NCBI RefSeq assembly: GCF_029323795.1
Contig: NZ_CP119758.1
Span: 496,001 to 560,000 of the forward strand
Direction of reading: 5' to 3'
Length of the DNA: 64,000 nucleotides
From: Zobellia alginiliquefaciens
Lineage (GTDB): Bacteria; Bacteroidota; Bacteroidia; Flavobacteriales; Flavobacteriaceae
A program made the position numbers and the translations under genes. This document shows, in pieces, positions 7,576-37,307 of this stretch. Position 1 is the stretch's first letter. Each line of letters opens with the position of its first letter. The notes below the pieces were generated by a model, which ran no database searches, had not been told where the DNA came from, and saw only the letters and a program-made list of their open reading frames with translations.

Positions 7576-7689
7576 GTCCGTAACCTATAGTATGTAGTAG
7601 CCTTTCATTTGAAACACATTCATCCGAGCCCCAAATTTGTATGATGCTATGCCTAGGCGATTTTATTAAACAAATTAAAAACAATTATC

Positions 7690-14928: not shown

Positions 14929-14981
14929 GATGGTAAGGTCTATGGTTTGTAGAGTAAGATTTGGGAATCCTTTTTTTTGTA

Positions 14982-16226: not shown

Positions 16227-16300
16227 ACTGTATATTTAAGATTTAGGCTATTTAATATGGTGATTATCCTGTATTTTTATATAATTCGATTTTACTATTT

Positions 16301-17557: not shown

Positions 17558-18082
17558 AATTTATATATTTCCTACATTTTTAATTAACTCACAAATCCGA
17601 GTCTTTCTGAATTTAAACACATTCAACTGTATATTAAATGTTAACACTTTCTTAGACTGAGATTTATGAGAACAATACGTAAACGATAATCCGTAATTTT
17701 ATTGTAAGAATTAACTTATAATCGATGAAATGTTGTATTTTAAAGAGATATTTATGCATTTCATCGATAAAATCAAATTTTATTGGATTGCCTTTATCTC
17801 AACAATCAAAAGCTGTCCCAGCAAACATTCCAAACGGAGTAAACCCTCTTCCTAAAAATAAAAACATCAACCTGTATTTCAACCACCAAACACATTAAAA
17901 ACATTTCAAATAGCTGATTTATAATGGTATAATTACACCAGTTTTTGACCTTTCTATTTTTTAAAAAGTCCAATAATGGTTGACTATAGAATAATGGCTG
18001 AAAGCCTTAAACCAGCAATACCATCGATGAAATACAATATTAACACCGTTATAGTGTTATATTTTCTGACAAATAATTACGA
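17558..18082. promoter_or_regulatory. Divergent control region of the polysaccharide locus with repeated ATCGATGAAAT boxes
   Basis: The 525-base non-coding gap separates the divergent operons. The 11-mer ATCGATGAAAT occurs at 17721-17731 (+), as its reverse complement at 17758-17768, and again at 18023-18033 (+). The first two form a 12-bp inverted repeat (ATCGATGAAATG / CATTTCATCGAT) separated by 24 bases. A further imperfect inverted repeat TAACAC-N7-GTGTTA is at 18041-18059, 24 bases before the next start codon. No clear TAnnTTTG was found. Confidence 0.55.
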
Positions 18083-21000
18083 ATGCAGCGTACCAACGTT
18101 TTATTAATCTTAGCACTGGTCATAGGCATAGCTTTTCACGGGTCTAGTATCTTCTTTACCCTTGAGACTACCTATGATGCTTTGATACATTTGTTTTTTG
18201 CGGACCATTACGCCAACAGTTGGTTTGAGCCGTGGGATTATAGGTGGTACACAGGTTTTACCGTACAGGCCTACCCTCCACTGGTACATCAATCTATTGG
18301 AATTCTCTCTCATATAGGCGGACTCAAGTTTGGAATGTTCACCGTAGCTATGATTGCAATTGTTTTGTTCATCACGGGAGCATATCGGTTTGGGTTATTG
18401 ATGACCGGTGATAGAAAAATTGCAGGCTATACTGCCATACTAGCTGTGTTCTCTTCCACCTTTGTAGAAACCCTTCATATTTTTGGGCAATTGCCAAGTA
18501 TCGTTGGACTTTCGGTACTTCTACATTCCTTACCAGAGATTTACCTTTGGGTAAAAACGGGTAAGCTAAGGTACATAGCCACAAGTCTATCATTGATTGC
18601 CGTGACGGTTACTTCTCACCATGTAACGCCTATTTTTGGAATGGTATTCTTTATTTTTCCATTGCTAGGCATGGCCGTAATGGATTCGGCCAGAGACCAA
18701 GTGAACAGCTTTAAAGAAGTACGCTTTTGGGTATTTTTCAAACAATTTAAAAAATGTTTTTGGCGAATCGTCATATTCGGTTTTTCATCATTGTTCCTTA
18801 TTGTTACCTGCATATTTCCCTATTGGCTCAACTCAAAGAAAAATCCAATTACCCAAGTACCCATTCCACATGGGTCTCGTGATAATTTTCTAGAAGTAAC
18901 CTCATCCGGACTCGTATTTTTTGTTATCCCATGGGGGATTCTGACCTTTATCCTTCCTTTTCTTTTTTATCGATATTACAGCAGGCGCTACATCTTTTTT
19001 GGATTATCGTTCTCAATGCTAACCCTTTTAGGTACCGGTGGAACAACTCCGCTTCCTCTCATATTATTAGGTGAAACCGCTTTTAATATATTGACTTTAG
19101 ACCGTTTTACTCTTTGGGCGACCATTATGGCTCTGCCTCTTTTTGGAGAATTTGCCTTTCGTATGGTAGAGGGCGATTTAAAAGAACGTATTCAGGAAAA
19201 TTGGGGTCGTGTATACCATCGTATTTTGGGGGGCGTAATTATGGGCGGTATTTTGTTCATGGTCATTTTTACCATGAGTCTTGGCTATTTTAGGCCATCA
19301 CAGCCGGCAAAAATAAAGATGCAGCCCATTATCAACTTTTTAAGTCAAGATTCTCATGACCATTGGCGTTATTTACCATTGGGGTTCGGAGATCAAATGG
19401 CTTGGTTATCTGCTCAAACAAAGGCAATGACGGTAGATGGAAACTATCATTCCGCCCGACGTTTGCCCGAACTTACCACTAGGGCAATTGAACGGTTAGA
19501 AAATTCAAAGTTTAGGGGTGTAGAAGGAATAGGGTCATTACAGCAGTTTTTAACGGTACCCGAGAAATACAACCTTAAATACATCTTCTCAAACGATAAA
19601 TTCTATGATCCCATTCTTTATTTCTGCGGATGGCAGCGCTTGCAACAACTAGAGAACGGAATTATGGTGTGGGAAAAACTCAACGTCCCGCCGTTCCCTA
19701 CAATAATGCCCAAAGAAGATGTACCCGTAGGAATTAAAATTATGTGGGGTATCATTCCCATACTAACGGTGGTCATCGCTTTTATAATAAATATTCAATG
19801 GATTTGGGTAAGAGCACTAAAAGCTAGAAAACTACCGCAAGGTGAGTTTATGAAGTATGCACTTGTACACAACAATTTTCCAAAGAAATTGGTAATCATA
19901 AATCATATATGGGCGTTTATTATATTGATTGTACTGGTTTTTGGAATACACTTATTCTACATTAAAAACGTAGACCAGATCGCCCCTACCAATGTAGTTG
20001 AAGCTTATTACGATGCTATTGATTTTAAAGAATTCAATAAAGCGCATTCTTTTTTAAACCCTGATAGCGGAAAGACCATTGCCCAATATATGTTAGAAGT
20101 ATCTGTTACAGATGGTATTCTTAGCTCTTACGCAAAACTAGATTCACTGGGCATTGAGTTTTTACAACAAAATGATACAAGCGCCCGGGTTAAGGCCGCT
20201 ACTAGATGGATTACGCCTTTAGAAAGTATTCATAAAGATTTTTATCACAGTCTTATTAAAAAGAAAGGCAAGTGGTACATAGAGCCTTCTTCTCTGGATA
20301 ATGATTTACCACCGGACCAATTGTTCACCTCTAACAACACCACCTTTTTCAATCATGGTAGACGAAAGATTACAACCCAACAAACTCACCACGAGGATGT
20401 TCTAAAACAACCTGTTTTAGAGGTATTAAAAGCCAAACTGGTGCAATACCAAGGTAGCTACAGCATTATTGGAGAACTGCAAAACGTGGATCACGTACCC
20501 GCCGATGTAGTCATTAAAGGCACACTTTATAATGATGAAAACAAAGAACTTGCTACCTACAATGCTAAAGATGTAGCCAAACATAAATTGATGCCAAAAG
20601 AGACCACCACCTTTAGAATAGATTTTGAAGGAATTGCCTGGTCATCAACAAAAGATACCCTGCCCCCTACTTTTAACCCGGACCAGTTCACTCCAATGAC
20701 TTTTGAGGAACAGCCTACAAAATTTAATCTACAGTGCGCCGGTAACGTTGCCAATACGGACTTATACAAGCAGGTTAGCCTTCAGGAATTGGTTTTTGAA
20801 GGAGATAAAATAAGTGGTACCCTTTACAACTCCGGTATACAGGAAGTTACTATTCCGCAGTTATTGATTTCATATTATGACGATAATAAAAAACTGATTT
20901 GGGTAGAACATGAATTTTTAACCGATGGTGTCCGTATTCAGAGAAAACGATTCTTCGAGTATGATGTGGCGTGTCTATCGGATATTAAAATCATAAATAG

Positions 21001-21169
21001 TAGTCTAGAGAATTGTTTTGTAAACGGAAGTCCGAATTCAGAAATTGGTATAAAACTTTTCCCAGATAGAGATGTATCGCATGCCCAGGACCAATTGCAA
21101 CCGTATTCCGGTGATGGATTTCAATATTTAAAATTTGAGTTGAACAGTTATATAGGTAACCCGAAATGA
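18083..21169 (+). CDS. Giant integral membrane protein, GT-C-like (PTPS-related membrane family)
   Basis: The 1028-residue protein has a polytopic N-terminal half (about residues 1-590, roughly 12 membrane helices) and a C-terminal soluble part after two more helices (near 540-640). The first extracytoplasmic loop contains TTYDALIHLFFADHYANSW (D32, H36) and YRWYTGFTVQAYPP, which resembles the acidic catalytic loop of GT-C glycosyltransferases and the '6-pyruvoyl-tetrahydropterin synthase-related' membrane proteins. The C-terminal 350 residues hold an NTF2-like segment (VVEAYYDAIDFKEFNKAHSF) and a beta-rich region. It likely uses lipid-linked sugar at the periplasmic face to build a polysaccharide. 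Its stop overlaps the ATG of the lipoprotein gene (ATGA). Confidence 0.75.
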   Translation: MQRTNVLLILALVIGIAFHGSSIFFTLETTYDALIHLFFADHYANSWFEPWDYRWYTGFTVQAYPPLVHQSIGILSHIGGLKFGMFTVAMIAIVLFITGAYRFGLLMTGDRKIAGYTAILAVFSSTFVETLHIFGQLPSIVGLSVLLHSLPEIYLWVKTGKLRYIATSLSLIAVTVTSHHVTPIFGMVFFIFPLLGMAVMDSARDQVNSFKEVRFWVFFKQFKKCFWRIVIFGFSSLFLIVTCIFPYWLNSKKNPITQVPIPHGSRDNFLEVTSSGLVFFVIPWGILTFILPFLFYRYYSRRYIFFGLSFSMLTLLGTGGTTPLPLILLGETAFNILTLDRFTLWATIMALPLFGEFAFRMVEGDLKERIQENWGRVYHRILGGVIMGGILFMVIFTMSLGYFRPSQPAKIKMQPIINFLSQDSHDHWRYLPLGFGDQMAWLSAQTKAMTVDGNYHSARRLPELTTRAIERLENSKFRGVEGIGSLQQFLTVPEKYNLKYIFSNDKFYDPILYFCGWQRLQQLENGIMVWEKLNVPPFPTIMPKEDVPVGIKIMWGIIPILTVVIAFIINIQWIWVRALKARKLPQGEFMKYALVHNNFPKKLVIINHIWAFIILIVLVFGIHLFYIKNVDQIAPTNVVEAYYDAIDFKEFNKAHSFLNPDSGKTIAQYMLEVSVTDGILSSYAKLDSLGIEFLQQNDTSARVKAATRWITPLESIHKDFYHSLIKKKGKWYIEPSSLDNDLPPDQLFTSNNTTFFNHGRRKITTQQTHHEDVLKQPVLEVLKAKLVQYQGSYSIIGELQNVDHVPADVVIKGTLYNDENKELATYNAKDVAKHKLMPKETTTFRIDFEGIAWSSTKDTLPPTFNPDQFTPMTFEEQPTKFNLQCAGNVANTDLYKQVSLQELVFEGDKISGTLYNSGIQEVTIPQLLISYYDDNKKLIWVEHEFLTDGVRIQRKRFFEYDVACLSDIKIINSSLENCFVNGSPNSEIGIKLFPDRDVSHAQDQLQPYSGDGFQYLKFELNSYIGNPK

Positions 21170-22395
21170 AAATGCATTTTGTACATATCTGCATTGCTTT
21201 CATGCTGCTTTTCTTAGGGTGTTCAAAAGAACCAGAGAAAAAGGAAGTTTCAAGCGCTACCTTTGAACTGCTCACAACAGAAGAGAACTTTACCGCCGGG
21301 GAAGCATTCGCTCTCCACTTCAAAGCCTCAGGAGAAGCCAGTCCTAATCTTATTTTTAGAAATGCGGTGGGCACCACGGTTCTTAAGCCTTCCGTTGTTG
21401 ATGATACTTTGCAATTTGCTATTCCAAAGAACTTTTACGAAAAATCGGGCATATGCTATTGGTCTTTGAATTCCGATTCCGAAGAAAAAATGAGTGGTAC
21501 ACTTAACATCTTAGTCAATAATAAAAATGGCACTTTTCTAGAATCGTATTTAGGACCTAGAAGTCTAACGGCAGGACCTATTGATTATGCCATGTTCGTT
21601 ATGCTTGCTACTGATTTCTATGACAACCCTTTAAACGATAGTACATCAATTTACAGTAAAGTCCAGTTTCAGGATAGCCAAACAGAACAAGAATTACGCA
21701 CTAAAAACCTTATGGCGTGGTCTCTAGTACGATCTCCCGAAAAATCTGGCCGTATGTTGATTTCCTCCGCTTGTAATGAAACTGACTCCAAAGAATTTAC
21801 CACAATTATCTACCCTGCAAATCCTGTGGATTTCACCATATCCTACGAAAGAAATCACGAATATGCAGATGGCAACCAAGTGATTACCTTTAGGACAAGC
21901 ATTTTAAGAGATACCTATGGTAATATTGTGGGAGACGGCACCTTGGTAGGTTTTATCATCACCGATGATAAAGGTGCAAAACTCAAAGCACAGGGCACGA
22001 CCCTTAACGGCAAAGCTGAAGCACGACTTTTACATCCCGAGCAAAAAGCGAGCTGGTCCGTGGAGGCATTTGTGACCGGCGCGGCAAGAAGCAAAGCTGT
22101 AAAAGTTGATTTCAAAGCTTCTATAACCGATTATGAAATTCATTTTTCAGAAGATTATAGAGCCATATCCGTAGGTCCGCTTAAAAGTTTTATGGACCAA
22201 CTTGTACCTGATGGTATGCCCATTGCTTTGACCGTTAGTGACAAAAACGGTAAGGTTTTGGACACACTCAGAACCTCTTCCATGCAGGGAGAAGGCCAAT
22301 TTAAACTCTCGGCAGATTTCTTCCCGAACGATACCTACGAGTTGAAAATTAAGACTGCAGGCCTAACCAAAATAAAATCAGTAGTACTAAAATGA
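21166..22395 (+). CDS. Lipoprotein with Ig-like beta-sandwich domains
   Basis: A signal peptide ending in LLFLGC-SKEPEKK (lipobox Cys at about residue 19) is followed by about 390 residues of beta-rich sequence with bacterial Ig-like (Big_1/invasin-like) repeat features: VITFRTSILRDTYGNIVGDGTLVGF and GKAEARLLHPEQKASWSVEAF. It overlaps the preceding giant membrane protein by four bases and the following GH5-like gene by four bases, so the three are translationally coupled and presumably form one envelope complex. The exact role (scaffold or polysaccharide-binding) is not known. Confidence 0.78.
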   Translation: MKMHFVHICIAFMLLFLGCSKEPEKKEVSSATFELLTTEENFTAGEAFALHFKASGEASPNLIFRNAVGTTVLKPSVVDDTLQFAIPKNFYEKSGICYWSLNSDSEEKMSGTLNILVNNKNGTFLESYLGPRSLTAGPIDYAMFVMLATDFYDNPLNDSTSIYSKVQFQDSQTEQELRTKNLMAWSLVRSPEKSGRMLISSACNETDSKEFTTIIYPANPVDFTISYERNHEYADGNQVITFRTSILRDTYGNIVGDGTLVGFIITDDKGAKLKAQGTTLNGKAEARLLHPEQKASWSVEAFVTGAARSKAVKVDFKASITDYEIHFSEDYRAISVGPLKSFMDQLVPDGMPIALTVSDKNGKVLDTLRTSSMQGEGQFKLSADFFPNDTYELKIKTAGLTKIKSVVLK

Positions 22396-23921
22396 AAATG
22401 AACAAAACTTTATATCGTATTTTTCTGCTGCTGTCATTTCTGGCTCTCAACGGCCTAATTTTATTCGGAATCAGCAGTGCCTGGACCTATTTGAATACCG
22501 GTGCCGACCGTACTTCAATGTTACATTTACACGAGGAGATTTCAGCTAGCTATCTTCCAAAAGTAGAATGGGAAATTGCCCAAAATGAAGGTAGGCCCAT
22601 GGAAGAACAAACTTTGGGTGAAATTGAGCGCGATTATATGAGCGCTTGGCAAGTACGGAATGCTGCTTATGCCAACAACGTACCCTACGGTATCGCTGAT
22701 TATTATACGGATAGTATGCGCACGGAACTTTTTAAGGTTACCGACCTCAACCTTAAAAATAAAGTTACCCTGCAGACCACCACGCTAGAGCATCATCCAA
22801 ATTTAGAATTTTATAGTACCGATGGAAAATTGGTGGTTTTGACCGATAAAAATGTATCGGCTTACGAAGAGGTTTACCAAGACGAAACTTTAGTGACAAA
22901 GCGAAGATTTACATCGGATTACAAGGTCATGCTGCTATTAGAAGATGGTTTTTGGAGGATTCGACAATTGGTTGAAACCGAATTACCGGAACAAATGAAG
23001 GAAATGCCATCACAAGTTCAAAATCTTAATGATTATCACTTTAAAGGCATCAATTACTATCCACAGGACACACCTTGGGATATGTTCGGAAAAAAATTCA
23101 ACGATTCAATTATTGAACATGATTTTAAACTCATGGCGAAAATGGGAGTCAATAGCTTACGTATTTTTATTCCCTATGAATCTTTTGGAAAAGAACATGT
23201 AGACCTTGAAAAAATACAAAGAGTAAAATTGACGTTAGATATTGCCGAAAAAAACGGACTGTCAATCATGCCTACACTTTTTGATTTTTATGGAAATTAT
23301 AGCGTTAGCGATTGGACGATGACCAATCGCCATGTTGAACAGGTAGTAGAAGCTTTAAAAGACCATAATGCTATTATTGCTTGGGACGTTAAGAATGAAC
23401 CTGACCTTGATTTTGAATCGCGCGGAAAAGATTTGGTACTTTCTTGGTTAGAGCAAACCGTAGAACGTATTCGCAAACTAGATCCGAGACATGCTATTAC
23501 CATTGGCTGGTCAAGCCCAGAAGCCGCCGTTAACCTAAAGGACGAGTTAGATCTGGTCTCCTTTCATTACTATAGAGAAGCTTCCGAGTTTCAAAATGTT
23601 CTTGCTAAACTTAAAGAAGAGGTTACAGATAAACCTTTAATTCTACAAGAGTACGGATACTCTTCATATGATGGTATTTGGAATGCCTATACCGGTTCGG
23701 ACAAAAAACAAAAAGAATATGTAGAGACTATTCAAAAAGTTGTGGAAAGAGAACAGTTATCTCATATGATATGGACGCTTTACGATTTTAAAAATATCCC
23801 GACCTCTGTAGTTGGGCGCCTGCCATGGCGAAAAGTAAGACAACGCCATTTTGGCCTTCTAGATTTTAAGGGAGACCAAAAACCCATTTACGAGGTATTT
23901 ACAAATTCGGGAAAAAAATAA
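22392..23921 (+). CDS. Membrane-anchored glycoside hydrolase (GH5-like, cellulase family TIM barrel)
   Basis: The 509-residue protein has an N-terminal transmembrane helix (about residues 8-32), a regulatory region of about 170 residues (NTF2-like), and a TIM barrel from about residue 200 starting FKGINYYPQDTPWDMFG. The acid/base glutamate is in AWDVKNEPDLD and the nucleophile in PLILQEYGYSS, in the order and spacing of clan GH-A, GH5 type. It probably trims or releases the polysaccharide in the periplasm, comparable in role to BcsZ or PslG, which sit in other exopolysaccharide operons. The linkage cleaved is unknown. Confidence 0.85.
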   Translation: MKMNKTLYRIFLLLSFLALNGLILFGISSAWTYLNTGADRTSMLHLHEEISASYLPKVEWEIAQNEGRPMEEQTLGEIERDYMSAWQVRNAAYANNVPYGIADYYTDSMRTELFKVTDLNLKNKVTLQTTTLEHHPNLEFYSTDGKLVVLTDKNVSAYEEVYQDETLVTKRRFTSDYKVMLLLEDGFWRIRQLVETELPEQMKEMPSQVQNLNDYHFKGINYYPQDTPWDMFGKKFNDSIIEHDFKLMAKMGVNSLRIFIPYESFGKEHVDLEKIQRVKLTLDIAEKNGLSIMPTLFDFYGNYSVSDWTMTNRHVEQVVEALKDHNAIIAWDVKNEPDLDFESRGKDLVLSWLEQTVERIRKLDPRHAITIGWSSPEAAVNLKDELDLVSFHYYREASEFQNVLAKLKEEVTDKPLILQEYGYSSYDGIWNAYTGSDKKQKEYVETIQKVVEREQLSHMIWTLYDFKNIPTSVVGRLPWRKVRQRHFGLLDFKGDQKPIYEVFTNSGKK

Positions 23922-23972
23922 AACCCTTTGTTGATTAGCTCCAATATTTTTCAAAGTACTGGTCCAAAAATA

Positions 23973-24275
23973 TCAAGCTTGATTAGTACCAAGTATATAC
24001 GTGGTATTAGTTTTATTCAATAAGGAGAAAACCCGCTCATTGGCACTACCTAATATTGTCAACGTACGATTGCGGGTTACAGCAAAATCATATAACCGTT
24101 TTAAGGCCAATGCACCGTTCGCATCAATTTCCGATAAACGTTCTAGATTGATAATTATCCGTCTATCCGAACCTAAGTATCTACCTATGTGTCGACTTAA
24201 AATAGTTGCGTTATTCAAATTCAATGTTCCGTGAACGCAAAATATACCACATGATTCCGTAATCTGTAAAGCCAT
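23973..24275 (-). CDS. STAS-domain protein lacking the phosphorylatable serine
   Basis: The 100-residue single STAS domain follows the anti-sigma-factor-antagonist fold: beta strand CGIFCVHGTLNLNNA, helix, RRIIINLERLSEIDANGALALKRLYD, and TLTILGSANERVFSLL. The usual D-S-S/T-G loop, where the serine is phosphorylated, reads D-A-N-G, so kinase control by serine phosphorylation seems lost. It lies on the opposite strand between the GH5-like gene and the TPR-barrel gene, so it is associated with the polysaccharide locus. No partner anti-sigma kinase is in the window. Confidence 0.8.
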   Translation of the reverse strand: MALQITESCGIFCVHGTLNLNNATILSRHIGRYLGSDRRIIINLERLSEIDANGALALKRLYDFAVTRNRTLTILGSANERVFSLLNKTNTTYILGTNQA

Positions 24276-24485
24276 AATGTAAAGTTCTGTAGGTTAATTT
24301 TTACAGTTGTAAAACTCTATTCAAGACACTAAAAATTAAAAGAGCTTTGCAACTGGACTTTAAATAACTGTATGTGAGCAAGTTTTATTGTTCATTATTC
24401 AAAAATGGCGCAAAACTTTTATAAAATAATTACCAATAAAAAAGTTTTATAGTCGTTATACACTTGTGGTAAAAAACTTACTTTA

Positions 24486-26546
24486 ATGTTAAAACTAAAT
24501 ACACTCTGCATCGTGCTATTCTTTTCGTTTATAGGAATGGCGCAAAGTCCACTTCAACCTGGCTTTACCTTACTGGAGAATGGTGATTTTGAGCAAGCGG
24601 AGACCTTTTTTGAGGGTTATCTCGTTGATGACCCAAACAATAAAACAGCGTTGCTATGTTATGGCCGTGCTGTAGGTTTGAGTGGTGAGCCCGAAAAAGC
24701 CACAGGAATTTTCTCAGACCTTTTAAAAGAATACCCTGGTGATTTTGAAGTTCAAATCAATTACAACGAATCTTTCCTTTGGGACAAAAAGTATAAACAA
24801 GCTGAGCCTCTATATGCTGACTTAGTAGCTAACTATCCTGAAAATTTTGGCGCAGTTTTAGGTTATGCCAATACCCTTAGCAATTTAAAAAAATACGAAA
24901 AGGCTTTGGAATGGGTTGAAAAGGCCTTGCAAATTGATCCGGGTAATAAGGGTGCCCTGACATCAAAAAAATATATGCGCTTAGGCTATGCAAATGCCTA
25001 TGTAAACGCTCAGAATTACAAAAAAGGAGAAGCCTTGTTAAAAGAGATATTTACAGATTTCCCTGAAGATAAAGATGCTTTACTAAATCTTGCCAATCTC
25101 TATTTGATTACAAAAAATACCGAGAAAGCAAAATCAACATACCGTCGCCTAGCGACTTCACCCAAAGATTCAATTAGTGCCCTGAACGGTATAGCCCTTG
25201 CAGAACATATTGGAGAGAACGACAAACAAGCTTTGGTAGTCGCTACAGAAGCAAAAGAAAGAGTAAAGTCTTTGGAGGATGAAGCTTTGAAGGAACAAAC
25301 GTATGATCGTTATGTACAAGCTTTAATATGGAATAGAAAATACAACCAGGCTAAAACTGAAATAGCAGCGTTAGAAACTACATACGAAAATCGCAATTGG
25401 ATCTACGCCCTAAAAGCTATGCATGGTCTTTATACAGGTGCTCCAAAAAAGAGTATTGCCAATTATGACGCTATCCTAAAAAATGATAATGCCTCTTTTG
25501 ACGGCAACCTAGGTAAAGCCAATGCACTTTTTGCGGCAGACCGTATAGTTCCAGCATACAAAGCCGCTTTTGGTACGCTCAAAGTATTTAAAGACCAGAA
25601 AGATGCTCTTGGTTTTATTGATAAATTGAATATATCGTTCACACCAACTTTAGAAGAACACCTAGCTTATACTTTTGACAACGGTAAAAACGTAGCTTTT
25701 TCTACAAATACAACTGCTACCGTCCCCCTTTCAACAAAATTAAGCACTAATCTTTCGTATAACTATAGGACTACCGAAAACACGTTAACAAATAACAAGG
25801 CAAGTTCCCATGTGCTTTCTGCTGGGTTTGATTATAAACTACTTCCTAAAACTACATTTAAGACCGTTTTAGGGTTGAACAAATCTAGTTTTGATTCAGC
25901 TTCCTATACACAACCAGTAATAGACGTTAAGCTTTTAATGCAACCTTTTAAGGTTCAAAATCTAGAACTTAATTACAAACGGGAGATTCAAAGCTTTAAT
26001 GCCGACCTTATTGAGCGGGAAATTGTAATGAACCACTTTGGCCTTAATTACAATTTAGGCACCAACTTTAATCTAGGTTGGTATACCCAAGCCATTTACA
26101 CGACACAAAGTGATGATAATATTAGAAAGCTTCTGTTTACCTCCCTATACTATAACGTCTTGCGTAAACCGGCCTTAAAAGTAGGTGTCAATTATCAATA
26201 TCTTTCTTTTGCCGATCAAGTACCAACTATTTACTTTAGTCCGGAAAAGTATCAGGCGGTAGAGCTCTTTGGTGACTTAAGGGGAGAGTTTTCTGAAAAC
26301 ACTACGTACATGATGAGTGCGGCTACCGGATTACAGCAAGTAGAAGAAGACCCAAATACGATAATATTTAGGGCCGAAGCGGGTGTAACCCATAAATTTT
26401 CTAAACGTTTTAGTGGCAACTTATATGGTAAATACAGTAACATTGCCTCCGCAACTGCTGCTGGTTTTGAGTTTACGGAGATTGGACTAAAACTAAAGTG
26501 GTTAATGACCAAAAAACCTTTATTCTACAAAAAGATAGTAAAATAA
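24486..26546 (+). CDS. TPR protein with C-terminal outer-membrane beta-barrel (YaiO-type/polysaccharide export porin)
   Basis: The 686-residue protein has a signal peptide (MLKLNTLCIVLFFSFIGMAQ), then about ten tetratricopeptide-type repeats (residues 25-390, e.g. GFTLLENGDFEQAETFFEGY, NYPENFGAVLGYANTLSNLK, ALEWVEKALQIDPGNKGALT), then a barrel of alternating strands with many aromatic ends (about 400-686). TPR-plus-barrel is the plan of BcsC, PgaA and PelB, which export cellulose, PNAG and Pel across the outer membrane. YaiO-family proteins are the closest annotation class in flavobacteria. Location behind the GH5-like gene supports an export-porin role. Confidence 0.82.
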   Translation: MLKLNTLCIVLFFSFIGMAQSPLQPGFTLLENGDFEQAETFFEGYLVDDPNNKTALLCYGRAVGLSGEPEKATGIFSDLLKEYPGDFEVQINYNESFLWDKKYKQAEPLYADLVANYPENFGAVLGYANTLSNLKKYEKALEWVEKALQIDPGNKGALTSKKYMRLGYANAYVNAQNYKKGEALLKEIFTDFPEDKDALLNLANLYLITKNTEKAKSTYRRLATSPKDSISALNGIALAEHIGENDKQALVVATEAKERVKSLEDEALKEQTYDRYVQALIWNRKYNQAKTEIAALETTYENRNWIYALKAMHGLYTGAPKKSIANYDAILKNDNASFDGNLGKANALFAADRIVPAYKAAFGTLKVFKDQKDALGFIDKLNISFTPTLEEHLAYTFDNGKNVAFSTNTTATVPLSTKLSTNLSYNYRTTENTLTNNKASSHVLSAGFDYKLLPKTTFKTVLGLNKSSFDSASYTQPVIDVKLLMQPFKVQNLELNYKREIQSFNADLIEREIVMNHFGLNYNLGTNFNLGWYTQAIYTTQSDDNIRKLLFTSLYYNVLRKPALKVGVNYQYLSFADQVPTIYFSPEKYQAVELFGDLRGEFSENTTYMMSAATGLQQVEEDPNTIIFRAEAGVTHKFSKRFSGNLYGKYSNIASATAAGFEFTEIGLKLKWLMTKKPLFYKKIVK

Positions 26547-26873: not shown

Positions 26874-26989
26874 AGTAGATGGCTTTAATATTCTTACTAC
26901 AAATTTACATCTGAAATTGAAAAATAAGAAAGCACTTACGTTGAATCACCTTAACCTATAGATGAATGGCATAAAATTGCAGAAATTCT

Positions 26990-27712
26990 TTAAACCAAGT
27001 TTAACCGTCTCATGAGTTCTGGTCTATTTGATCGACTAATGGGAATCACCATCTTTTTGATTAGAACGCTATTGTCTTCAATATCTATAATTTTAGTGAA
27101 GTTTATAACGTAAGATCTGTGTATTTGTAGAAACGTTTTATCTGGTAATTTCTCTTTTATTTTCTTTAGTGTAGTATGTACTCTATATTCTTTGTTTTCT
27201 GTGGTAATATCAATATAATCGCCTTGCGCCTTTACCACAAGAATTTCGTGCAAATTCAGTTTTATCAACCTTTTATCGATGTTGATATATAAATCTTTTT
27301 CAGCTTCTACTGTAGTATTCGTTTTTGGATTAGAACCTGAAACGGGAGATGCCTTTTTTTCGAGTGCATTTTTAATCTTTTGAACGGATTTTGCAAAGCG
27401 CTCTGCAGTTAGCGGTTTAACCATGTAATCTACAATAGCCTCATACTCATATGCTTCTATGGCAAATTCGGTATCCGAAGTAGTCAACACTACTTTAGGA
27501 CAATTCTTTAGAGTTTGAACAAAATCAACCCCGCTAAATCCAGGCATATGAATATCCAAAAACACAACATCTACATCTTGTTGGTTTAAAAACTTTATAG
27601 CGTCTATTGCATTATCAAACTCGCCCACAACATTTAAATCCGACACCGAAGAGCAGTGTTTTGCTACTATGGCGCGGGCCGTTGCTTCATCGTCTACGAT
27701 AATACAGGTCAT
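26990..27712 (-). CDS. LytTR-family response regulator
   Basis: Residues 1-120 are a receiver domain with acidic D7/D8, phosphoacceptor D53 in VFLDIHMPGFSG and the conserved KP (MVKPLTAERF). Residues about 145-240 are a LytTR DNA-binding domain: INIDKRLIKLNLHEILVVKA, YRVHTTLKKIKEKLP, FLQIHRSYVINFTKI and IPISRSNRPELMRRL. It binds DNA and is the transcriptional output of the phosphorelay encoded directly upstream; it follows the Hpt gene with a 4-base gap. The targets are unknown; the polysaccharide operons next door and this operon are the obvious candidates. Confidence 0.93.
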   Translation of the reverse strand: MTCIIVDDEATARAIVAKHCSSVSDLNVVGEFDNAIDAIKFLNQQDVDVVFLDIHMPGFSGVDFVQTLKNCPKVVLTTSDTEFAIEAYEYEAIVDYMVKPLTAERFAKSVQKIKNALEKKASPVSGSNPKTNTTVEAEKDLYINIDKRLIKLNLHEILVVKAQGDYIDITTENKEYRVHTTLKKIKEKLPDKTFLQIHRSYVINFTKIIDIEDNSVLIKKMVIPISRSNRPELMRRLNLV

Positions 27713-27716
27713 GCTA

Positions 27717-28034
27717 TTAAAGAGTTTTAAGAAAGCCTTCTACTTTGGTTAATATTTCTCTAAATTCCGAATCCATGTCACTTATACCAGCACGTAATTG
27801 TTCCTCAAAGGTAACTGCAAATCCGTATGCTTCCTCCATACTCAAAATATTGAACTTGTGCTTTAATTTATGAACTATATCAGCAGCATCATTATATTCA
27901 TTACTATCTATATGTTTCATATATGTTGCTAATTCCACCGGAAATTCCTCCTTCAAGATAGAGATAAATTTTTGTTCGAACTCAATATCATCCCCAGATA
28001 ATTCTTTTATGTACTTAAGGTTTGGTTGTTCCAT
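27717..28034 (-). CDS. Histidine phosphotransfer (Hpt) domain protein
   Basis: A 105-residue four-helix-bundle protein with the Hpt motif AADIVHKLKHKFNIL, where H55 corresponds to the phosphorylated histidine of HxLKG (here HKLKH, the Gly is His). It should shuttle phosphate between a receiver and a second receiver. Its start overlaps the 3' end of the histidine kinase gene by 20 bases and its stop is four bases before the LytTR gene, so the three are co-translated. Confidence 0.85.
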   Translation of the reverse strand: MEQPNLKYIKELSGDDIEFEQKFISILKEEFPVELATYMKHIDSNEYNDAADIVHKLKHKFNILSMEEAYGFAVTFEEQLRAGISDMDSEFREILTKVEGFLKTL

Positions 28035-29097
28035 TGCTATCCTTTTTTAATGTAAACGAAAAATTAGCTCCCATATTTTCTTCAGATACCAGTTCTATGG
28101 AACCATGATACAATCTAACAATTTTTTTGACCAAAGCCAGTCCTACTCCTGCCGAGCTATCATTATTCTCTAACTTCTTAAACATTTCAAATATGGAGGT
28201 TTGATGCTTAACCGGGATGCCTTTTCCGTTATCAATTACAGAAAATTTCCAAAACTCAGCCTGATCCTCAAATTTTATAGTAATTACCCCCTTCTTAAGA
28301 TGCTTGGTTGCAGTAATGGCATTTGTTATTAAGTAAGCAAAAATCTGTTCAATAAGGTGTTTTTCTATATGTATAACCGGAAAATCATTCCCATAGTTCA
28401 GGGTGATATTTTCTTGCAACGGCACGTAGCTTTCAATTTCATTTAAAAGAAGGTTGATATCTACATTCATTTTAGACTCCATACTTGTTCCAATGGTAGC
28501 ATGTTCTAAAATACCGTTAATCAAATTATCCATTTTCACGAGATTACTTGATGCCAATTCTATATTTTCCTTACTATCCTCCGTTAGACTGTTCTGGTTG
28601 TCATCTTGTATCCAGCTCAAAAGCGCATTTACGTTCCGTATAGGCGATTTTAAATCATGTGATACCATTTGCACATAATTATTAAGCGAATCATTCTGAG
28701 TTTCCAGATCCTTCAATAGTACATTTTTTTCTTCCGTCATTTCGCCCACCTGGGAAGCCAATTTACTAATTTGTTGTGCCAATTTTTCAACATCAAACTC
28801 CTTTTTCGCATCATTGTTAAATTGATTTTCACTACTTAAATTTGAATTTAAGCTAGTCATTGCCAATTCTAATGACGCCAAAATTTTCTTTTGCCTTTCA
28901 GCTTCTTTAGTAAGCTCCCTATTGGCGATGAATAATTCTTCAGAGCTAATGGCAGTAGCTCTTTGTATCATGCTTAATTTTTCATCGTAATTCTGATATG
29001 ACATCTCTACCGCATCCAAAAACCGCTGCATATCTTCATTCTCACTAAGAGATGCAGGTAGGTTCTTCTTAAGTTGTCGTTTTAATAGAGAGTGCAT
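28015..29097 (-). CDS. Histidine kinase (FIST-associated, NahK-like N-terminus)
   Basis: The 360-residue soluble kinase has a helical N-terminal segment (FLDAVEMSYQNYDEK, ERQKKILASLELA, about 20-135), then HisKA with H147 in MVSHDLKSPIRN, and HATPase_c with the N box (FAYLITNAITAT), G1 DNGKGIP and G2 GVGLALVKKI. No transmembrane helix or PAS domain, so it must be controlled by a protein partner. The N-terminal pattern resembles kinases that sit next to FIST proteins, such as NahK with NosP in Pseudomonas. Its ATG shares one base with the TAA of the FIST gene. Confidence 0.9.
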   Translation of the reverse strand: MHSLLKRQLKKNLPASLSENEDMQRFLDAVEMSYQNYDEKLSMIQRATAISSEELFIANRELTKEAERQKKILASLELAMTSLNSNLSSENQFNNDAKKEFDVEKLAQQISKLASQVGEMTEEKNVLLKDLETQNDSLNNYVQMVSHDLKSPIRNVNALLSWIQDDNQNSLTEDSKENIELASSNLVKMDNLINGILEHATIGTSMESKMNVDINLLLNEIESYVPLQENITLNYGNDFPVIHIEKHLIEQIFAYLITNAITATKHLKKGVITIKFEDQAEFWKFSVIDNGKGIPVKHQTSIFEMFKKLENNDSSAGVGLALVKKIVRLYHGSIELVSEENMGANFSFTLKKDSNGTTKP

Positions 29098-30230
29098 TAT
29101 TCACTAAATAAAGTTAAGGTCATAGTTTGGTTGTGCAACTTACAAGCATCTTGGCCTACAAAGGGAGCCATTTCCCCGTAAGAGTAAAATCCTGTGACTG
29201 CTGCTCCGCTACCAATAACGGAAATTACTTCTTCCACTTCTTCTTCCGTTCTTTGATCCATAACCAGCTTTCTACCTACACAACTTATTAAAATAGCTAA
29301 TTCTGGTTCATTCTTTCTATTATCCATGGCATATTGCGCAGCAACACTTGCCGCATCTACAATATCATCTACGGTGGCCATCATTAATTGAACACGTGCA
29401 TCTTTTGGAACATCACCGGCCAATGTCATTGTATTAGCTGTTTCATCTATGGTTAAAATGGTACGGACCACAGGCTCCGAATTTTCATTTACCCTCACGC
29501 TTAACGGAAAAAGCAATGCAGAAGTTGGTAATTCTTGCGCCTTATCTCCTAAATACTTTTTATATAAATCTAGAGCGGGCTGCCCATCTAACTCATAAAG
29601 TATATTGTTCTCAGATTTTGTAATTGTACGTTCAGGCCCAAAAGGTGTCCACCCTCCATAATTGGCACTCGTAATTTCCAAAGATTCCCCATAGAAACCT
29701 ATAGCTATAATTTCACCTTCCTTAGGGCTCTCATTGTAGGAGGCAAGTGTTTTTTCAAAACGATCATCATCACCACATAATCCACCAGAAATACCAATAT
29801 GGTTCAGCCTTGCATCTTCAAAACCGCCAATTAAAGCACTGCCGTTTACAGAACTTCCCTCCGATATTAAAAAAATATATTTTAGGCCTTCTTTTGGAAA
29901 CTCACTGAGAATAGTTTCACCAAGTACAAGGTCATCATCTATGTCCGATACATTACCCCTCTTTACTGTGAAACTACATCTTTCAAACTCAATAGCTGTC
30001 AAAGATACCGAACCTTGTTGTACCGAATCTCCAATAATTTCGCCAGCAGTGCTACCAAAAACAATATGTCCTCCCGGAAAAAGTTCCTTTACTTCATTGT
30101 AAAGGCTTTTATCTTCTAATGCATACCTATTTCCAAAGACCAAAACCAAAGGATTATCCAAAGTTTGATTTTCACCAGATATTAATTTAAAGGGCTCCGC
30201 TACTTCTTTTACCGCTTGTACTATTTTCAT
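29097..30230 (-). CDS. FIST domain sensor protein (NosP-like candidate)
   Basis: The 377-residue cytoplasmic protein consists of FIST-N (about 30-215: NPLVLVFGNRYALED, IVFGSTAGEIIGD, GSALIGGFEDARL, GISGGLCGDDDRF) and FIST-C (about 220-370: ILYELDGQPALDLYKKYLG, ILISCVGRKLVMDQR, GFYSYGEMAPF and the conserved CKLHNQTMTLTLF end). FIST proteins are small-ligand sensors; in Pseudomonas and Vibrio the NosP subgroup binds haem and nitric oxide and controls a neighbouring kinase. Here the neighbours are two kinases and an H-NOX gene. Haem binding cannot be read from the sequence; the terminal His is one candidate ligand. Confidence 0.85.
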   Translation of the reverse strand: MKIVQAVKEVAEPFKLISGENQTLDNPLVLVFGNRYALEDKSLYNEVKELFPGGHIVFGSTAGEIIGDSVQQGSVSLTAIEFERCSFTVKRGNVSDIDDDLVLGETILSEFPKEGLKYIFLISEGSSVNGSALIGGFEDARLNHIGISGGLCGDDDRFEKTLASYNESPKEGEIIAIGFYGESLEITSANYGGWTPFGPERTITKSENNILYELDGQPALDLYKKYLGDKAQELPTSALLFPLSVRVNENSEPVVRTILTIDETANTMTLAGDVPKDARVQLMMATVDDIVDAASVAAQYAMDNRKNEPELAILISCVGRKLVMDQRTEEEVEEVISVIGSGAAVTGFYSYGEMAPFVGQDACKLHNQTMTLTLFSE

Positions 30231-30232
30231 CT

Positions 30233-32224
30233 TTAACTATTTAGGCTAGTTGGTTCTTTTTTAATAGTAAAGTGAAACTCGGTACCCATATCTTTTTCAC
30301 TCTCTACCCACACTTCGCCTTCATAGCGATCAATAATCTTCTTTACTATAGAAAGTCCTATACCGGTGGACCTTTCATTAGCTCCTATAGATTGAAAAAT
30401 CTCAAATATTTTTTTATGGTACTCCTTTGGAATACCTACCCCATTATCTTTAATGGAAAACTGCCAATGGGTTGAGTTTTCCACAAATAATACCTCTACA
30501 AGACCCACTTCTTTTTCAATATGAACAACGGCATTGGATAGTATGTTCTGAAATAACTGGTGCATCTTGGTACTATCTGCAATAATTGTAGGCAAAACTT
30601 TAGGAACCACTAAGGCCACATGATCAGGAATAAATATACTTTCCTTGATTTTTTCTACAACAACGTTCAAATCAACACTGGAGTTATCCAAGGCGGAATC
30701 ATTAGCCGTTGAGTATTCCAAAATACCCTGAATTAGCTTATCCATTGAAGCAACCTTCTCTTGCATTAATGTTAAGTTCTGTTGACCTGCTTCATCAAGG
30801 ACATCTTTATAATCATCCTGTATCCAAGTAGCCAAAGCACTTATACTTCGTAATGGTGATTTTAAATCATGGGAAACGATATGTGCATATTCCTGAAGTC
30901 CTTTATTACTTTGTTCAAGCTTCTTAAGCAATTGCTCTTTTTGATTTTGTAGAATTTTTTGTTCGGTAACATCCAGATGAATTCCTACCGAGCCAATTAA
31001 GGTCTTTTGATTATCATATCTTGGTGCACCACTTACCAACCAATGTTTCTTATTTCCAGCTTTATCAAAAACCTCTAATTCATATGAATTTGATTCGCCT
31101 TCTGTGCGTTTTTCATTTTCCTTATCTAGAATATTCTTGTTCTGAACACGAAGCACTTCACTTCCTACTTTTCCTAAAAGTTCTTCTTCCTTATATCCGC
31201 TCATAGCACAAAAGCTTTGGTTCACGAGCTGTATAACGTCATTCGTATCTACTTCTATTAGGCCAAGGTTCATGTTAGCTATTATACTCGCATATTTTTC
31301 GCGCTCGTAGTTCAATCGCTCTTCGGCTTCACGCTCCCTGGTAATATCCTCAACCATTGCCAAGAGATACATTAAATTGCCCTTGTAGTCCCTTACTGCA
31401 CTTACAGAAGTCTTACCTACCAAGCAGCCACCTTCCTTTTTATAGTATCTTTTTATAGCGATTGCTGCATCAATTTCACCTGCTAACATTTTCGCCATAA
31501 TTTCATCCGTAGGTTCTCCTTCTATATCTTTTGAAAACTCACTAAGCTTCATTGTCTTAAACTCCGCTTCTGTATAACCTAGGAGCTCAGTAAACGTGCT
31601 GTTTGATTTTATGATTTTATCTTCAACACTTAAGACTATGCCTAAAGGAGAACTTTCAACAATAATATCTAACTGCTTTCTTTGTTGATCAAGTAATTCT
31701 TTAATTTCCGTTTCTTGTGTAATATCCCTAATAATACCCTGTGCACCAATAGGTTCCTGTTTTGTATTATAAATTAAGCTGCTATTGATTTCAATCCATT
31801 TCTCATCTCCATTCTTTACATTTATTTTAGCCCTGTAGTTTTTTAATGTACCAACTTTTAAAAGGTATTTGAAAGATTCTGCGGTATATTGAAGATAATC
31901 TTTGTGTACAAGCTCTGTTAAGTTTACACTTTCTTTGGTATGGTCGTATCCCAAAAATTCTTTTGCGGAACTATTCATTTTAATAACATTGGCCGTAAGA
32001 TCCATTACTACGTAAGGGTCAATGATATTTACAAATACGCCATCTAGCTCAGACACTTTTTCGCTCAAGAGATTCTCTAGAGTACCATTGGCCTCTTTCA
32101 GGCGAGCCGCAGTTTCATATAATTCAGTAGATTTTTGTTCTAGAATTTTCTCGGCTTGTTGCCTCGCTTTTTTCTGTCTTTCTAAAGCCTTTTTGAGAAG
32201 TTGTACCTCTTTACTACTATCCAT
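30233..32224 (-). CDS. PAS-domain histidine kinase, partner of H-NOX
   Basis: The 663-residue soluble kinase: N-terminal coiled coil (about 1-65), three PAS/PAC units (about 65-185, 190-305 and 310-430; e.g. IDPYVVMDLTANVIKMNSS, MNLGLIEVDTNDVIQLVNQ), a second coiled coil, HisKA (YAHIVSHDLKSPLRS, His at about 450) and HATPase_c (FQNILSNAVVHI, DNGVGIPKEY, GIGLSIVKKI). No membrane segment. I chose the ATG at 32224, which overlaps the H-NOX stop codon (ATGGATAG), rather than the ORF start five codons upstream. Overlap with H-NOX indicates that H-NOX controls this kinase. Confidence 0.93.
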   Translation of the reverse strand: MDSSKEVQLLKKALERQKKARQQAEKILEQKSTELYETAARLKEANGTLENLLSEKVSELDGVFVNIIDPYVVMDLTANVIKMNSSAKEFLGYDHTKESVNLTELVHKDYLQYTAESFKYLLKVGTLKNYRAKINVKNGDEKWIEINSSLIYNTKQEPIGAQGIIRDITQETEIKELLDQQRKQLDIIVESSPLGIVLSVEDKIIKSNSTFTELLGYTEAEFKTMKLSEFSKDIEGEPTDEIMAKMLAGEIDAAIAIKRYYKKEGGCLVGKTSVSAVRDYKGNLMYLLAMVEDITREREAEERLNYEREKYASIIANMNLGLIEVDTNDVIQLVNQSFCAMSGYKEEELLGKVGSEVLRVQNKNILDKENEKRTEGESNSYELEVFDKAGNKKHWLVSGAPRYDNQKTLIGSVGIHLDVTEQKILQNQKEQLLKKLEQSNKGLQEYAHIVSHDLKSPLRSISALATWIQDDYKDVLDEAGQQNLTLMQEKVASMDKLIQGILEYSTANDSALDNSSVDLNVVVEKIKESIFIPDHVALVVPKVLPTIIADSTKMHQLFQNILSNAVVHIEKEVGLVEVLFVENSTHWQFSIKDNGVGIPKEYHKKIFEIFQSIGANERSTGIGLSIVKKIIDRYEGEVWVESEKDMGTEFHFTIKKEPTSLNS

Positions 32225-32759
32225 TTTGAACAATATCAAATTTCACCTCTGTACCGTCCTCTTTTAATAGATCATATGTGATAGTTGCAGAACCACCAAA
32301 ATGTTCAAAGGCTTTTTCTATGAGACCATGCGCCAGACGATATAAGCCTCTTGAGGAAGAATATACCATAGTAATTCTAGAATCTGTTTTATCAAGAATC
32401 TTAAAGGTTGGTAATTCTGCATCTGGGTACAGTTTTTTAACGTGTACATGAATATGGTCTTCTATACAATATAAAAGACCTAAGGGAGTATTGTAGTTCT
32501 TAATGACCTCTGGGTGCGAATTGGCCAAACCTGCGAAAAGGTACAGACCAAAAGCATAAATAAGATCACCGACAGGAATTTTTGTTTCCTCACTAAGGTT
32601 GGTTATGAGGGTAACCATCTCGTTAAATTCATACGTTCCAACGGATGTATAAATTCCTTCAGATGGCAAATTTCCATTTTCTATTATGTTGTCCAAGGTC
32701 TCAAGTCCAAACTTAGCCTCGACCATTTCCAAAAATTCCGTGAATACTATTCCTTTCAT
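32217..32759 (-). CDS. H-NOX haem-based nitric oxide sensor
   Basis: The 180-residue HNOB domain protein starts MKGIVFTEFLEMVEAKFG. The haem proximal histidine is H103 in EDHIHVHVKKLYPDAELP, and the haem-propionate motif YxSxR is Y133-S135-R137 (MVYSSSRGL), both at the standard positions for 180-residue H-NOX proteins. These bind NO with high affinity and usually inhibit or activate a cognate histidine kinase. Facultative H-NOX normally lacks a distal tyrosine; by spacing from YxSxR I see L142 there, suggesting NO rather than O2 preference, which an alignment should test. It overlaps the following kinase gene by eight bases. Confidence 0.94.
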   Translation of the reverse strand: MKGIVFTEFLEMVEAKFGLETLDNIIENGNLPSEGIYTSVGTYEFNEMVTLITNLSEETKIPVGDLIYAFGLYLFAGLANSHPEVIKNYNTPLGLLYCIEDHIHVHVKKLYPDAELPTFKILDKTDSRITMVYSSSRGLYRLAHGLIEKAFEHFGGSATITYDLLKEDGTEVKFDIVQNG

Positions 32760-32836
32760 AGCTCTTAAATTTATTTAATAAAAGTAAGAAAAGTAGTATG
32801 TACTTAGGAATTTTTGTTGTGAAAACCAATTATTTG

Positions 32837-33238
32837 TTAGCCTTTCACTAATTGATTGACATCCCAATATTGAAGAACCTTATGAAGCTTAGACTCATAC
32901 TCTTCATATTTTAAAGGCTTTATAACATAGCCGGCTACACCAATTTTGTAACATTCCAACAAATCAGCTCTATTTTCAGATGTTGTAAGAATAACTGTAG
33001 GAAGATATTTTAGAACATCATCAGCTCTAAGAATGCTCAAAAATTCAATCCCGTTCATTCTTGGCATATTGAGGTCTAACAGTATAATATCCGGTAGTTT
33101 ATTCCCTGATTTAAGAATCTCTAGTGCGTCTTCGCCGTTCTTAGTCTCAATAATATTATGCTTAAGTTCTAATTTCTTTACAGTACGCTGTAATTTCATT
33201 ACTTCTATAGCATCATCTTCGATTAATAAAATATCCAT
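32837..33238 (-). CDS. Single-domain response regulator (CheY-like)
   Basis: A 133-residue receiver without an output domain: acidic E7/D8/D9 pocket, phosphoacceptor D55 in IILLDLNMPRMNG, T in VILTTSEN, and K in YVIKPLKYEEY. It is the first gene of the H-NOX operon, 77 bases before the H-NOX start, and is a plausible intermediate that takes phosphate from one kinase and passes it to the Hpt protein. Its long KxxR-poor C-terminus (ESKLHKVLQYWDVNQLV) is common in flavobacterial CheY-like proteins. Confidence 0.9.
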   Translation of the reverse strand: MDILLIEDDAIEVMKLQRTVKKLELKHNIIETKNGEDALEILKSGNKLPDIILLDLNMPRMNGIEFLSILRADDVLKYLPTVILTTSENRADLLECYKIGVAGYVIKPLKYEEYESKLHKVLQYWDVNQLVKG

Positions 33239-33420
33239 AATTATTTGTAATTAAATTGAATACAAATCTCCAAATTAAATAATATAATTTTAACTAGGTG
33301 TAGACGAATGGAAAAAAACTGTAGGTGAATGGTATTTTAAATAGGTTAAAGATTTTGTCCGAAGCCCATGTAATCAATTAAAAAGCAATCTTTTACTCCC
33401 TATTTCCGGCAATTATTCTA

Positions 33421-34051: not shown

Positions 34052-34059
34052 TAGATTTG
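34052..34059 (+). promoter_or_regulatory. -7 promoter element of the carotenoid regulator
   Basis: TAGATTTG fits TAnnTTTG. It lies 21 bases before the ATG at 34081 and overlaps the upstream TTG (34057) that could otherwise be read as a start. Confidence 0.6.
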
Positions 34060-34080
34060 TTTAACTTTTTTTCAAAAAGA

Positions 34081-34977: not shown

Positions 34978-34998
34978 ATATGTTTTTATAGAAAAGTA

Positions 34999-36456: not shown

Positions 36457-36466
36457 AACCCATACT

Positions 36467-37306: not shown

Positions 37307-37307
37307 A

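Follow-up and report, generated by a model that had tools for sequence, protein, structure and literature searches.

Results

The 64,000-nucleotide stretch of the Zobellia alginiliquefaciens genome analysed here (contig NZ_CP119758.1, positions 496,001 to 560,000; hereafter the window) carries on its minus strand, at 26990–33238, a seven-gene operon that joins an H-NOX protein, member of a nitric oxide (NO) sensor family, and a FIST protein to the parts of a phosphorelay. From first to last the genes encode a free receiver (REC), H-NOX, a PAS-containing histidine kinase (HK1), FIST, a second histidine kinase (HK2), a histidine phosphotransfer protein (Hpt) and a LytTR response regulator:

32837..33238, minus strand: REC, single-domain CheY-like receiver with D55, first gene of the operon (PF00072, 78.1 bits)
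32217..32759, minus strand: H-NOX, predicted haem NO-sensor protein with H104 and YSSSR at 133 (PF07700, 125.6 bits)
30233..32239 (probable ATG start 32224), minus strand: HK1, with a coiled-coil-like N-terminus, three PAS domains and HisKA-HATPase with H457 (Pfam)
29097..30230, minus strand: FIST_N/FIST_C sensor protein of a non-NosP clade (PF08495, 143 bits; PF10442, 124 bits)
28015..29097, minus strand: HK2, with an N-terminal region of 75–80 residues, HisKA-HATPase (H147, HDLKSP) and no receiver domain (Pfam)
27717..28034, minus strand: Hpt, phosphotransfer protein with H55 (PF01627, 22.5 bits against a cut-off of 24.6)
26990..27712, minus strand: LytTR response regulator with D53, proposed output of the relay (PF00072 and PF04397)

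Each gene has a Pfam match, and Hpt is the sole one below its curated cut-off. REC and H-NOX are separated by 77 bases; H-NOX overlaps HK1 by 8 bases with the ATG start of HK1 (32224) and by 23 with a TTG start (32239); HK1 and FIST lie 2 bases apart, FIST and HK2 overlap by 1 base, HK2 and Hpt by 20, and a gap of 4 bases precedes LytTR. An earlier note on this DNA had read seven genes on one strand with these overlaps and gaps, and that layout holds, its 8-base overlap assuming the ATG start. The motif residues that it listed for REC, the kinases, Hpt and LytTR are present, as is YxSxR, except that the H-NOX histidine is H104 and not H103.

We followed the gene set in two samples. One genome per species was scanned with the window's H-NOX protein, giving 65 loci, 57 of the same kind and 8 distant; with the window, the same-kind loci make 58 rows (48 complete, 10 cut short), which are close relatives since they were gathered by similarity to this H-NOX. 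The second sample was 249 Flavobacteriaceae genomes. All seven genes occur in the same order in 27 of the 48 complete loci, which argues that their adjacency, as the earlier note had supposed, is not accidental; 16 loci hold REC, H-NOX, HK1, Hpt and LytTR without FIST and HK2, and 5 lack LytTR only. Of the complete loci, 32 carry FIST together with HK2 and 16 carry neither, with no locus (0/48) having one alone, and in 32/32 loci the pair lies between HK1 and Hpt. Thus, REC-HNOX-HK1-Hpt-LytTR appears to be the core and FIST-HK2 a plug-in.

The note had also called for a check of H-NOX and FIST co-occurrence. H-NOX was found in 93 of the 249 family genomes, FIST in 77 and both in 60 (odds ratio 14.9, P 9e-19, a value inflated by kinship). 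A FIST gene lies within 10 kb in 50 of the 93 H-NOX genomes, downstream and on the same strand in 50/50. The H-NOX count comprises 97 matches in the 93 genomes; among them, one is below the cut-off and contains stops (G076:C2), and one is partial (G112:C80). Across the phylum, 26/345 genomes have H-NOX. The distance from H-NOX to FIST changes in steps of ~385 bases, with 5, 11, 17 and 13 genomes near 1350, 1735, 2120 and 2505 and 4 elsewhere; it is 2131 in the window, where Pfam finds three PAS domains in HK1, and the steps would reflect a varying number of PAS domains in that kinase.

A single origin of the FIST absence is not supported by the H-NOX tree, whose resolution is weak: about 7 changes are needed and at least 3 are forced. 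Within the stretches examined, FIST is missing from the 8 outgroup H-NOX loci; it occurs elsewhere in 7/8 of those genomes. A suspicion raised by tblastn, that the FIST-less loci are HK1/HK2 recombination hybrids, was ruled out, as their kinase cores group with HK1. In six genomes (G037, G069, G078, G101, G225, G247), 2–4 adjacent FIST genes scoring ~70–110 bits with Pfam FIST have no H-NOX within 10 kb. In G050 (L061), a FIST of the operon clade lies on a different contig from H-NOX, with an HK1-like PAS kinase ahead of it; this is perhaps a relocated kinase-FIST-HK2 block.

The H-NOX protein scores 125.6 bits with the HNOB domain, against a curated cut-off of 25.5, and its closest relatives in the PDB are 6bde (E 2e-58) and 6bdd (E 1e-57). 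Its H104, which we take to be the proximal haem ligand, corresponds to position 104 in the alignment with solved homologues, and H104 and YxSxR (Y133-S135-R137) are invariant in 58/58 rows. The protein is thus a member by sequence of the NO-sensor family, with haem and NO binding predicted.

We next compared the N-terminal regions of the two kinases by means of profiles, run against a set of open reading frames (ORFs) from H-NOX, FIST and own-genome kinase loci, within which set any exclusivity is valid. The N-terminus of HK1 is a coiled-coil-like stretch, which in the window reads LKKALERQKKARQQAEKILEQKSTELY. Its profile matched the kinase in each of the 8 outgroup H-NOX loci (L118–L125, two of them from Pseudomonadota) and did not match in the H-NOX locus L011; it also weakly matched kinases beside FIST (L128, L042, L033) and L163, and some matches span the PAS part alone (L050, L054, L056, L061). 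All 72 rows matched by the HK2 profile have a FIST gene on the same strand no more than 2 kb away, and they extend to the class of Methylobacter (L151, L154, L156 and L160). The 41 rows that fall outside the named loci represent 39 ORFs, 3 being the window's own HK2 repeated. Neither profile matched the 28 other own-genome kinase loci (L167–L194), where some long kinases may lack their N-terminus. Given these distinct regions, the two sensors seem to use different kinase adaptors, one each, and comparative genomics therefore bears out the proposal of a separate kinase for each sensor.

The genes beside five NosP-group proteins start with a third type of N-terminal region. With filters off, the HK2 profile scored at best 16.8 bits in total, and 9.8 in one domain, on the three scorable NosP-side kinases, and HK2 is not a partner kinase of NosP type. 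Among 40 other kinase cores of its own genome, the best match of HK2 is HK1 (157 bits), followed by a GAF kinase (151) and the next at 94; HK1 as best paralogue fits a shared receiver without proving it. HK2 forms one clade (support 95/92), on a kinase tree in which the outgroup kinases are long branches. The catalytic histidines are H147 in 32/32 rows of HK2 and H457 in 54/57 of HK1, the remaining three being gaps.

The FIST protein has FIST_N and FIST_C domains and the FIST fold. In the AlphaFold model (mean predicted local distance difference test score 83), residues 355–366, including C363 and H366, are poorly modelled; the best structural match in the PDB is a chain of a human FBXO22 complex (E 4.7e-10), and a sequence search for solved relatives gave none, with one match at E 0.59. 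C152 is conserved in 33/33 rows, and C317, C363, H366 and M370 in 32/33 (one row is cut short).

The earlier note had called this protein NosP-like, and that label was not supported. Against the NCBIfam equivalog for NosP (NF041558) it scores 67.5 bits (E 1e-18) where the cut-off is 450; for comparison, a protein above that cut-off occurs in 2/185 genomes of another class, and two of the eight NosP-group proteins that we compared exceed it. A profile of the operon FISTs gave 560–708 bits on FISTs of the same clade, 334–422 on family FISTs elsewhere and three Bacteroidota outgroups (172 for one fragment), 31–353 on other FISTs from the class of Methylobacter, and 17.6–45.7 on 6/8 NosP-group proteins, with no match on the other two; it also found none in six loci (L134, L139, L142, L147, L163, L164). 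In a tree of 88 rows (86 distinct, some species twice, L139 and L142 left out), the operon FISTs form one 50-row clade, 49 beside H-NOX and one moved. This clade is nested in a 71-row clade (support 99/98), separate from the clade holding 6 NosP-group rows. The operon FISTs end in CxLHNQTM (CxxHNQT), while 7/8 NosP-group proteins have H[IV]NQT. The two groups are distant homologues (hhalign probability 98.9), and C317 aligns with a cysteine found in 8/8 NosP-group proteins; our literature search, in the source parts available, found no named haem ligand of NosP. Score, clade, C-terminal motif and partner kinase, whose N-terminus differs, together rule out this FIST as a NosP. Of the two NO sensors first proposed, H-NOX stands as a sensor-family member and FIST is unproven in that role: by sequence, the operon holds one NO-sensor family (H-NOX) and a FIST sensor that may respond to NO or to another ligand.

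The relay residues are intact throughout. D55 of REC is found in 58/58 rows, H55, K56 and H59 of Hpt in 52/52, and D53 of LytTR in 46/46, so that the set needed for a His-Asp-His-Asp relay (kinase, REC, Hpt, output regulator) is complete. According to Pfam, HK1 and HK2 both lack a receiver domain, and by phosphorelay logic the free REC would be the natural donor to Hpt. The idea of one phosphorelay is thus upheld as far as the unit and its residues go, while the order of phosphate transfer is a prediction from sequence.

Each of the five genomes with a LytTR-less operon has, at another place, a LytTR 69–73% identical to the window's. It directly follows a REC, 55–60% identical to the operon REC, in 5/5, so the REC-LytTR pairing recurs. 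The relocated LytTR adjoins paralogues of the flippase described below and, in L243, of the glycosyltransferase. In these loci (L242–L246, ~4200–8250) the relocated REC-LytTR is preceded by a PAS kinase and a small conserved protein and followed by the flippase paralogue. The kinase, which we take to be of HisKA_3 type, is a possible second input to the LytTR regulator.

Scans of the upstream regions revealed a candidate operator for LytTR:

33299..33332, minus strand: tandem operator-like box, CCATTCACCTACA-N8-CCATTCGTCTACA, 21-bp period, before REC (box scans)
17985..17997, minus strand: degenerate box with 3 mismatches, before the Wzx gene (box scan)
26957..26969, minus strand: single half-box with 2 mismatches, just after the LytTR stop (box scan)

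A dyad scan found CCATTCGTCTACA upstream of both REC and Wzx, and in inverted orientation upstream of the exporter gene. With up to 2 mismatches the box is present in 44/58 REC upstreams. Allowing 1 mismatch, 57 loci (1.02 Mb) yielded 61 matches, all in the operon direction: 33 in the 14.25 kb before REC, 13 in the 9.5 kb before Wzx and 15 elsewhere; two Markov shuffles of the same 1.02 Mb gave 1 and 0. A second copy lies 21 bp away, at +21 in 23 loci and at −21 in 18, the next spacing having 1.

We defined a tandem box as two boxes with at most 8 summed mismatches. It precedes REC in 38/43 complete loci that have LytTR (22/27 with seven genes, 16/16 with five) and in 0/5 of the LytTR-less loci, against 5/1960 random stretches. 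It precedes the relocated REC-LytTR in 5/5 genomes. The 10 loci cut short, tallied apart as LytTR is out of view in 7, have it in 10/10. In the organism's own 5.07-Mb genome, the single two-box match at up to 3 mismatches is the one before REC, with 0 mismatches; nine Zobellia genomes have 1–2 two-box matches each, and 0–1 each for a reversed control pattern.

LytTR regulators bind direct repeats ~12 bp apart, and one of them, AlgR, binds CCGTTCGTC (PMC4064291; this and the other PMC sources are cited for the parts available to us). The operon's own regulator has the REC and LytTR domains and the direct-repeat sites of this class. The co-occurrence of the box with LytTR, its AlgR-like core and its direct repeats make it very probably the site of the operon's LytTR, and on these comparisons the operon is probably autoregulated. 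A transcriptional output through LytTR, as first suggested, is accordingly borne out by the box that co-occurs with it. A single box just past the LytTR stop, in the operon direction, occurs also in L074 (13185), L075 (13558) and L080 (13559), and is perhaps tied to a small RNA.

Next to the operon lies a polysaccharide-type gene cluster (13777–26546):

24486..26546, plus strand: candidate exporter with TPRs and, in one half, a probable beta-barrel; convergent with the operon (TPR by Pfam, barrel by reading)
23973..24275, minus strand: STAS protein (PF01740)
22392..23921, plus strand: glycoside hydrolase, GH5-like (PF00150)
21166..22395, plus strand: 409-residue protein whose Ig-like matches are weak and under the cut-off; some relatives have it close to the operon (Pfam)
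18083..21169, plus strand: 1028-residue protein with hydrophobic stretches and no Pfam family, conserved in four other Zobellia
16301..17557, minus strand: Wzx/flippase-like polysaccharide protein, downstream of the operon in relatives (PF13440)
14982..16226, minus strand: GT4-like glycosyltransferase (PF13692, PF00534)
13777..14928, minus strand: fusion of REC and a family 2 glycosyltransferase (PF00072 and PF00535)

To find the TPR-barrel exporter gene, we scored 4 candidates in each genome (E up to 1e-60). The gene occurs in 64 of the 249 family genomes, and H-NOX is present in 58 of these 64 (odds ratio 41, P 4e-25, again inflated by kinship). It lies less than 25 kb downstream of H-NOX in 54/64 genomes, convergent in 53, with FIST in 33 and without it in 21. 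The Saprospiraceae locus L118 has the same polysaccharide neighbours at 27–50% identity. Boxes lie 95–121 bp before the GT4 gene in seven relatives; before Wzx, five Zobellia (L263 apart, whose stretch ends before Wzx) show 0, 1, 2, 3 (the window) and 5 mismatches. Pel-specific Pfam models exist, and the flippase and glycosyltransferase match general families only (PF13440, PF13692, PF00534), so the cluster was not recognised as a Pel-type system. The REC-glycosyltransferase fusion inside the cluster is a possible second control point for phosphorylation.

Searching the 249 family genomes for GGDEF domains gave matches in 5, of which 3 were over the cut-off, and 0 in the organism's own genome; the same search was positive in 8/14 control genomes. 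With H-NOX in 93/249 but GGDEF in 5/249, cyclic di-GMP (c-di-GMP) is an unlikely output.

Upstream of the operon (34057–37763) are a MerR/CarH-like gene and then phytoene desaturase-, phytoene synthase- and carotenoid hydroxylase-like genes, named from ORF reading, the MerR protein alone having been domain-scanned. They lie near the operon in 4/5 other Zobellia loci and in 2–3 further loci, and we judged them unrelated to it.

Discussion

We propose that H-NOX with NO bound would modulate HK1, and a FIST signal HK2, each through the dedicated N-terminal region of its kinase. Phosphate would pass from HK1 and HK2 to the CheY-like REC, from there to H55 of Hpt and on to D53 of LytTR, which would bind the tandem CCATTCGTCTACA boxes with their 21-bp period and switch its own operon on or off. 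In many relatives LytTR would also act on the exopolysaccharide cluster next door, at its Wzx/STAS and GT4 promoters. In this way NO and the FIST signal would set the production of a polysaccharide, possibly of the biofilm matrix, without c-di-GMP. We regard such a c-di-GMP-free, two-input phosphorelay, with LytTR controlling itself and, in relatives, exopolysaccharide genes, as probable. The wider claim, that Flavobacteriaceae have a c-di-GMP-free route from NO to exopolysaccharide built of an H-NOX relay, a LytTR operator of its own, a tie to one polysaccharide cluster and a FIST-kinase plug-in, its FIST of a clade not known to bind NO, attached through its own N-terminal region, we consider evenly balanced.

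Several points weigh against this proposal. The model, the relay and its output are predictions from sequence comparison. Hpt scores 22.5 bits, under the Pfam cut-off of 24.6, and phosphate might pass directly from kinase to LytTR, with Hpt as a side store. Kinship among genomes inflates all the co-occurrence P values. The five LytTR-less loci are one clade, and box and LytTR may have moved in one event; the own genome likewise gives 1 match to the reversed two-box control. The exporter gene is not near H-NOX in 10/64 genomes, 6 of which lack any H-NOX match. The Wzx box, with up to 2 mismatches, is present in just 13/26 upstreams, is degenerate in the window (3 mismatches) and is practically absent (5) in one of five Zobellia. 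Because the Wzx box is degenerate or missing in part of the loci, LytTR control of the polysaccharide genes would be weaker than autoregulation.

What FIST contributes can be read in three ways. It might be a haem NO sensor like NosP, giving the operon two readings of NO, for instance at two different concentration ranges. The distant homology to NosP (hhalign 98.9; NCBIfam NosP E 1e-18), the aligned C317 and the FIST neighbours in 50/93 H-NOX genomes agree with this, but the different clade, the 67.5 of 450 bits, the other C-terminal His motif, the other kinase N-terminus and the common FIST-less H-NOX operon (16/48) make it doubtful. Alternatively, FIST senses some other signal, a small metabolite or haem itself, which the relay integrates with NO. 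We give this an even chance: its clade stands apart from NosP, FIST-HK2 comes and goes without disturbing the H-NOX core, and a haem-responsive NosP is mentioned in PMC13259868; against it, the constant partner belongs to an NO-sensor family. Lastly, FIST-HK2 could be merely co-transcribed and have its targets elsewhere, leaving the Hpt-LytTR relay to H-NOX and HK1 alone. HK2 lacks a receiver and might act as a kinase for other regulators, and the core exists without the pair in 16/48 loci; yet the pair's one site between HK1 and Hpt (32/32 loci), the 50-row clade with 49 FISTs beside H-NOX, and HK1 as best own-genome paralogue of HK2, narrowly ahead of the GAF kinase, make such independence quite unlikely.

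The exopolysaccharide cluster, for its part, might be a mere neighbour, with the relay controlling other genes. The degenerate or missing Wzx box in part of Zobellia and a two-box pattern found in the own genome only before REC would agree with that. Synteny in 54/64 genomes and in the Saprospiraceae locus, boxes before Wzx or GT4 in many relatives, and a relocated LytTR beside flippase paralogues and, in L243, a glycosyltransferase paralogue speak for the proposed polysaccharide output instead, and we hold the neighbour explanation to be unlikely.

The operon resembles known systems in its parts. In Shewanella, an H-NOX/NosP network reportedly has both inputs converging in one organism, as in the operon here, and is said to differ in its c-di-GMP output, its true NosP and its separate loci. 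In Vibrio, H-NOX/HqsK and NosP/VpsS feed LuxU-LuxO (PMC6769237), so that, as proposed here, NO sensors act through cytosolic kinases on one Hpt and a transcription regulator; that system differs in having its sensors in different species, hybrid kinases and added quorum inputs, whereas the operon here joins both sensor genes, a free REC, Hpt and LytTR. NosP-NosK-NosR of Burkholderia (PMC12570481) likewise combines a FIST protein, a soluble kinase without a recognised sensor domain and a receiver in one operon; its output is HD-GYP and its sensor is described as NosP, while the operon FIST lies outside the NosP group that we tested. The Hnox2-kinase-CheY operon of Legionella (PMC8738867, PMC11237717) shares an H-NOX gene overlapping the kinase and a single-domain receiver, and the available parts of these sources do not name Hpt, LytTR or FIST in the set. 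AlgR (PMC4064291) has a near-identical core box and controls an exopolysaccharide, alginate; unlike the system here, it has another kinase, polysaccharide and promoter layout and is without an NO-sensor operon.

NosP operons have been described (PMC12570481, PMC11237717), and FIST genes near H-NOX are known for one H-NOX group, not as a shared relay in the part of the source available (PMC8738867). The earlier note knew of no system with this exact set; we found none either, although the nearness of FIST to H-NOX had, as that source attests, already been reported. Our literature search, covering titles and abstract openings, found no paper that joins H-NOX, FIST, Hpt and LytTR and none on H-NOX with exopolysaccharide in Bacteroidota. 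The parts are of known types; the combination, the FIST-HK2 plug-in, the c-di-GMP-free polysaccharide output and the operator we did not find described.

The H-NOX/NosP literature that we surveyed centres on proteobacteria and mostly on c-di-GMP. The exopolysaccharide cluster and the operator-like box, which go beyond the earlier note, are the two best clues to the output of the operon. The N-terminal regions of HK1 and HK2 are candidate contact surfaces for the H-NOX and FIST sensors, and FIST-HK2, carried by some operons and missing from others that are equal in all else, amounts to a natural experiment in which a relay acquires a second input. For Flavobacteriaceae, the operon would offer a concrete alternative to c-di-GMP, made up of a single regulator, a single operator sequence and a single polysaccharide cluster.

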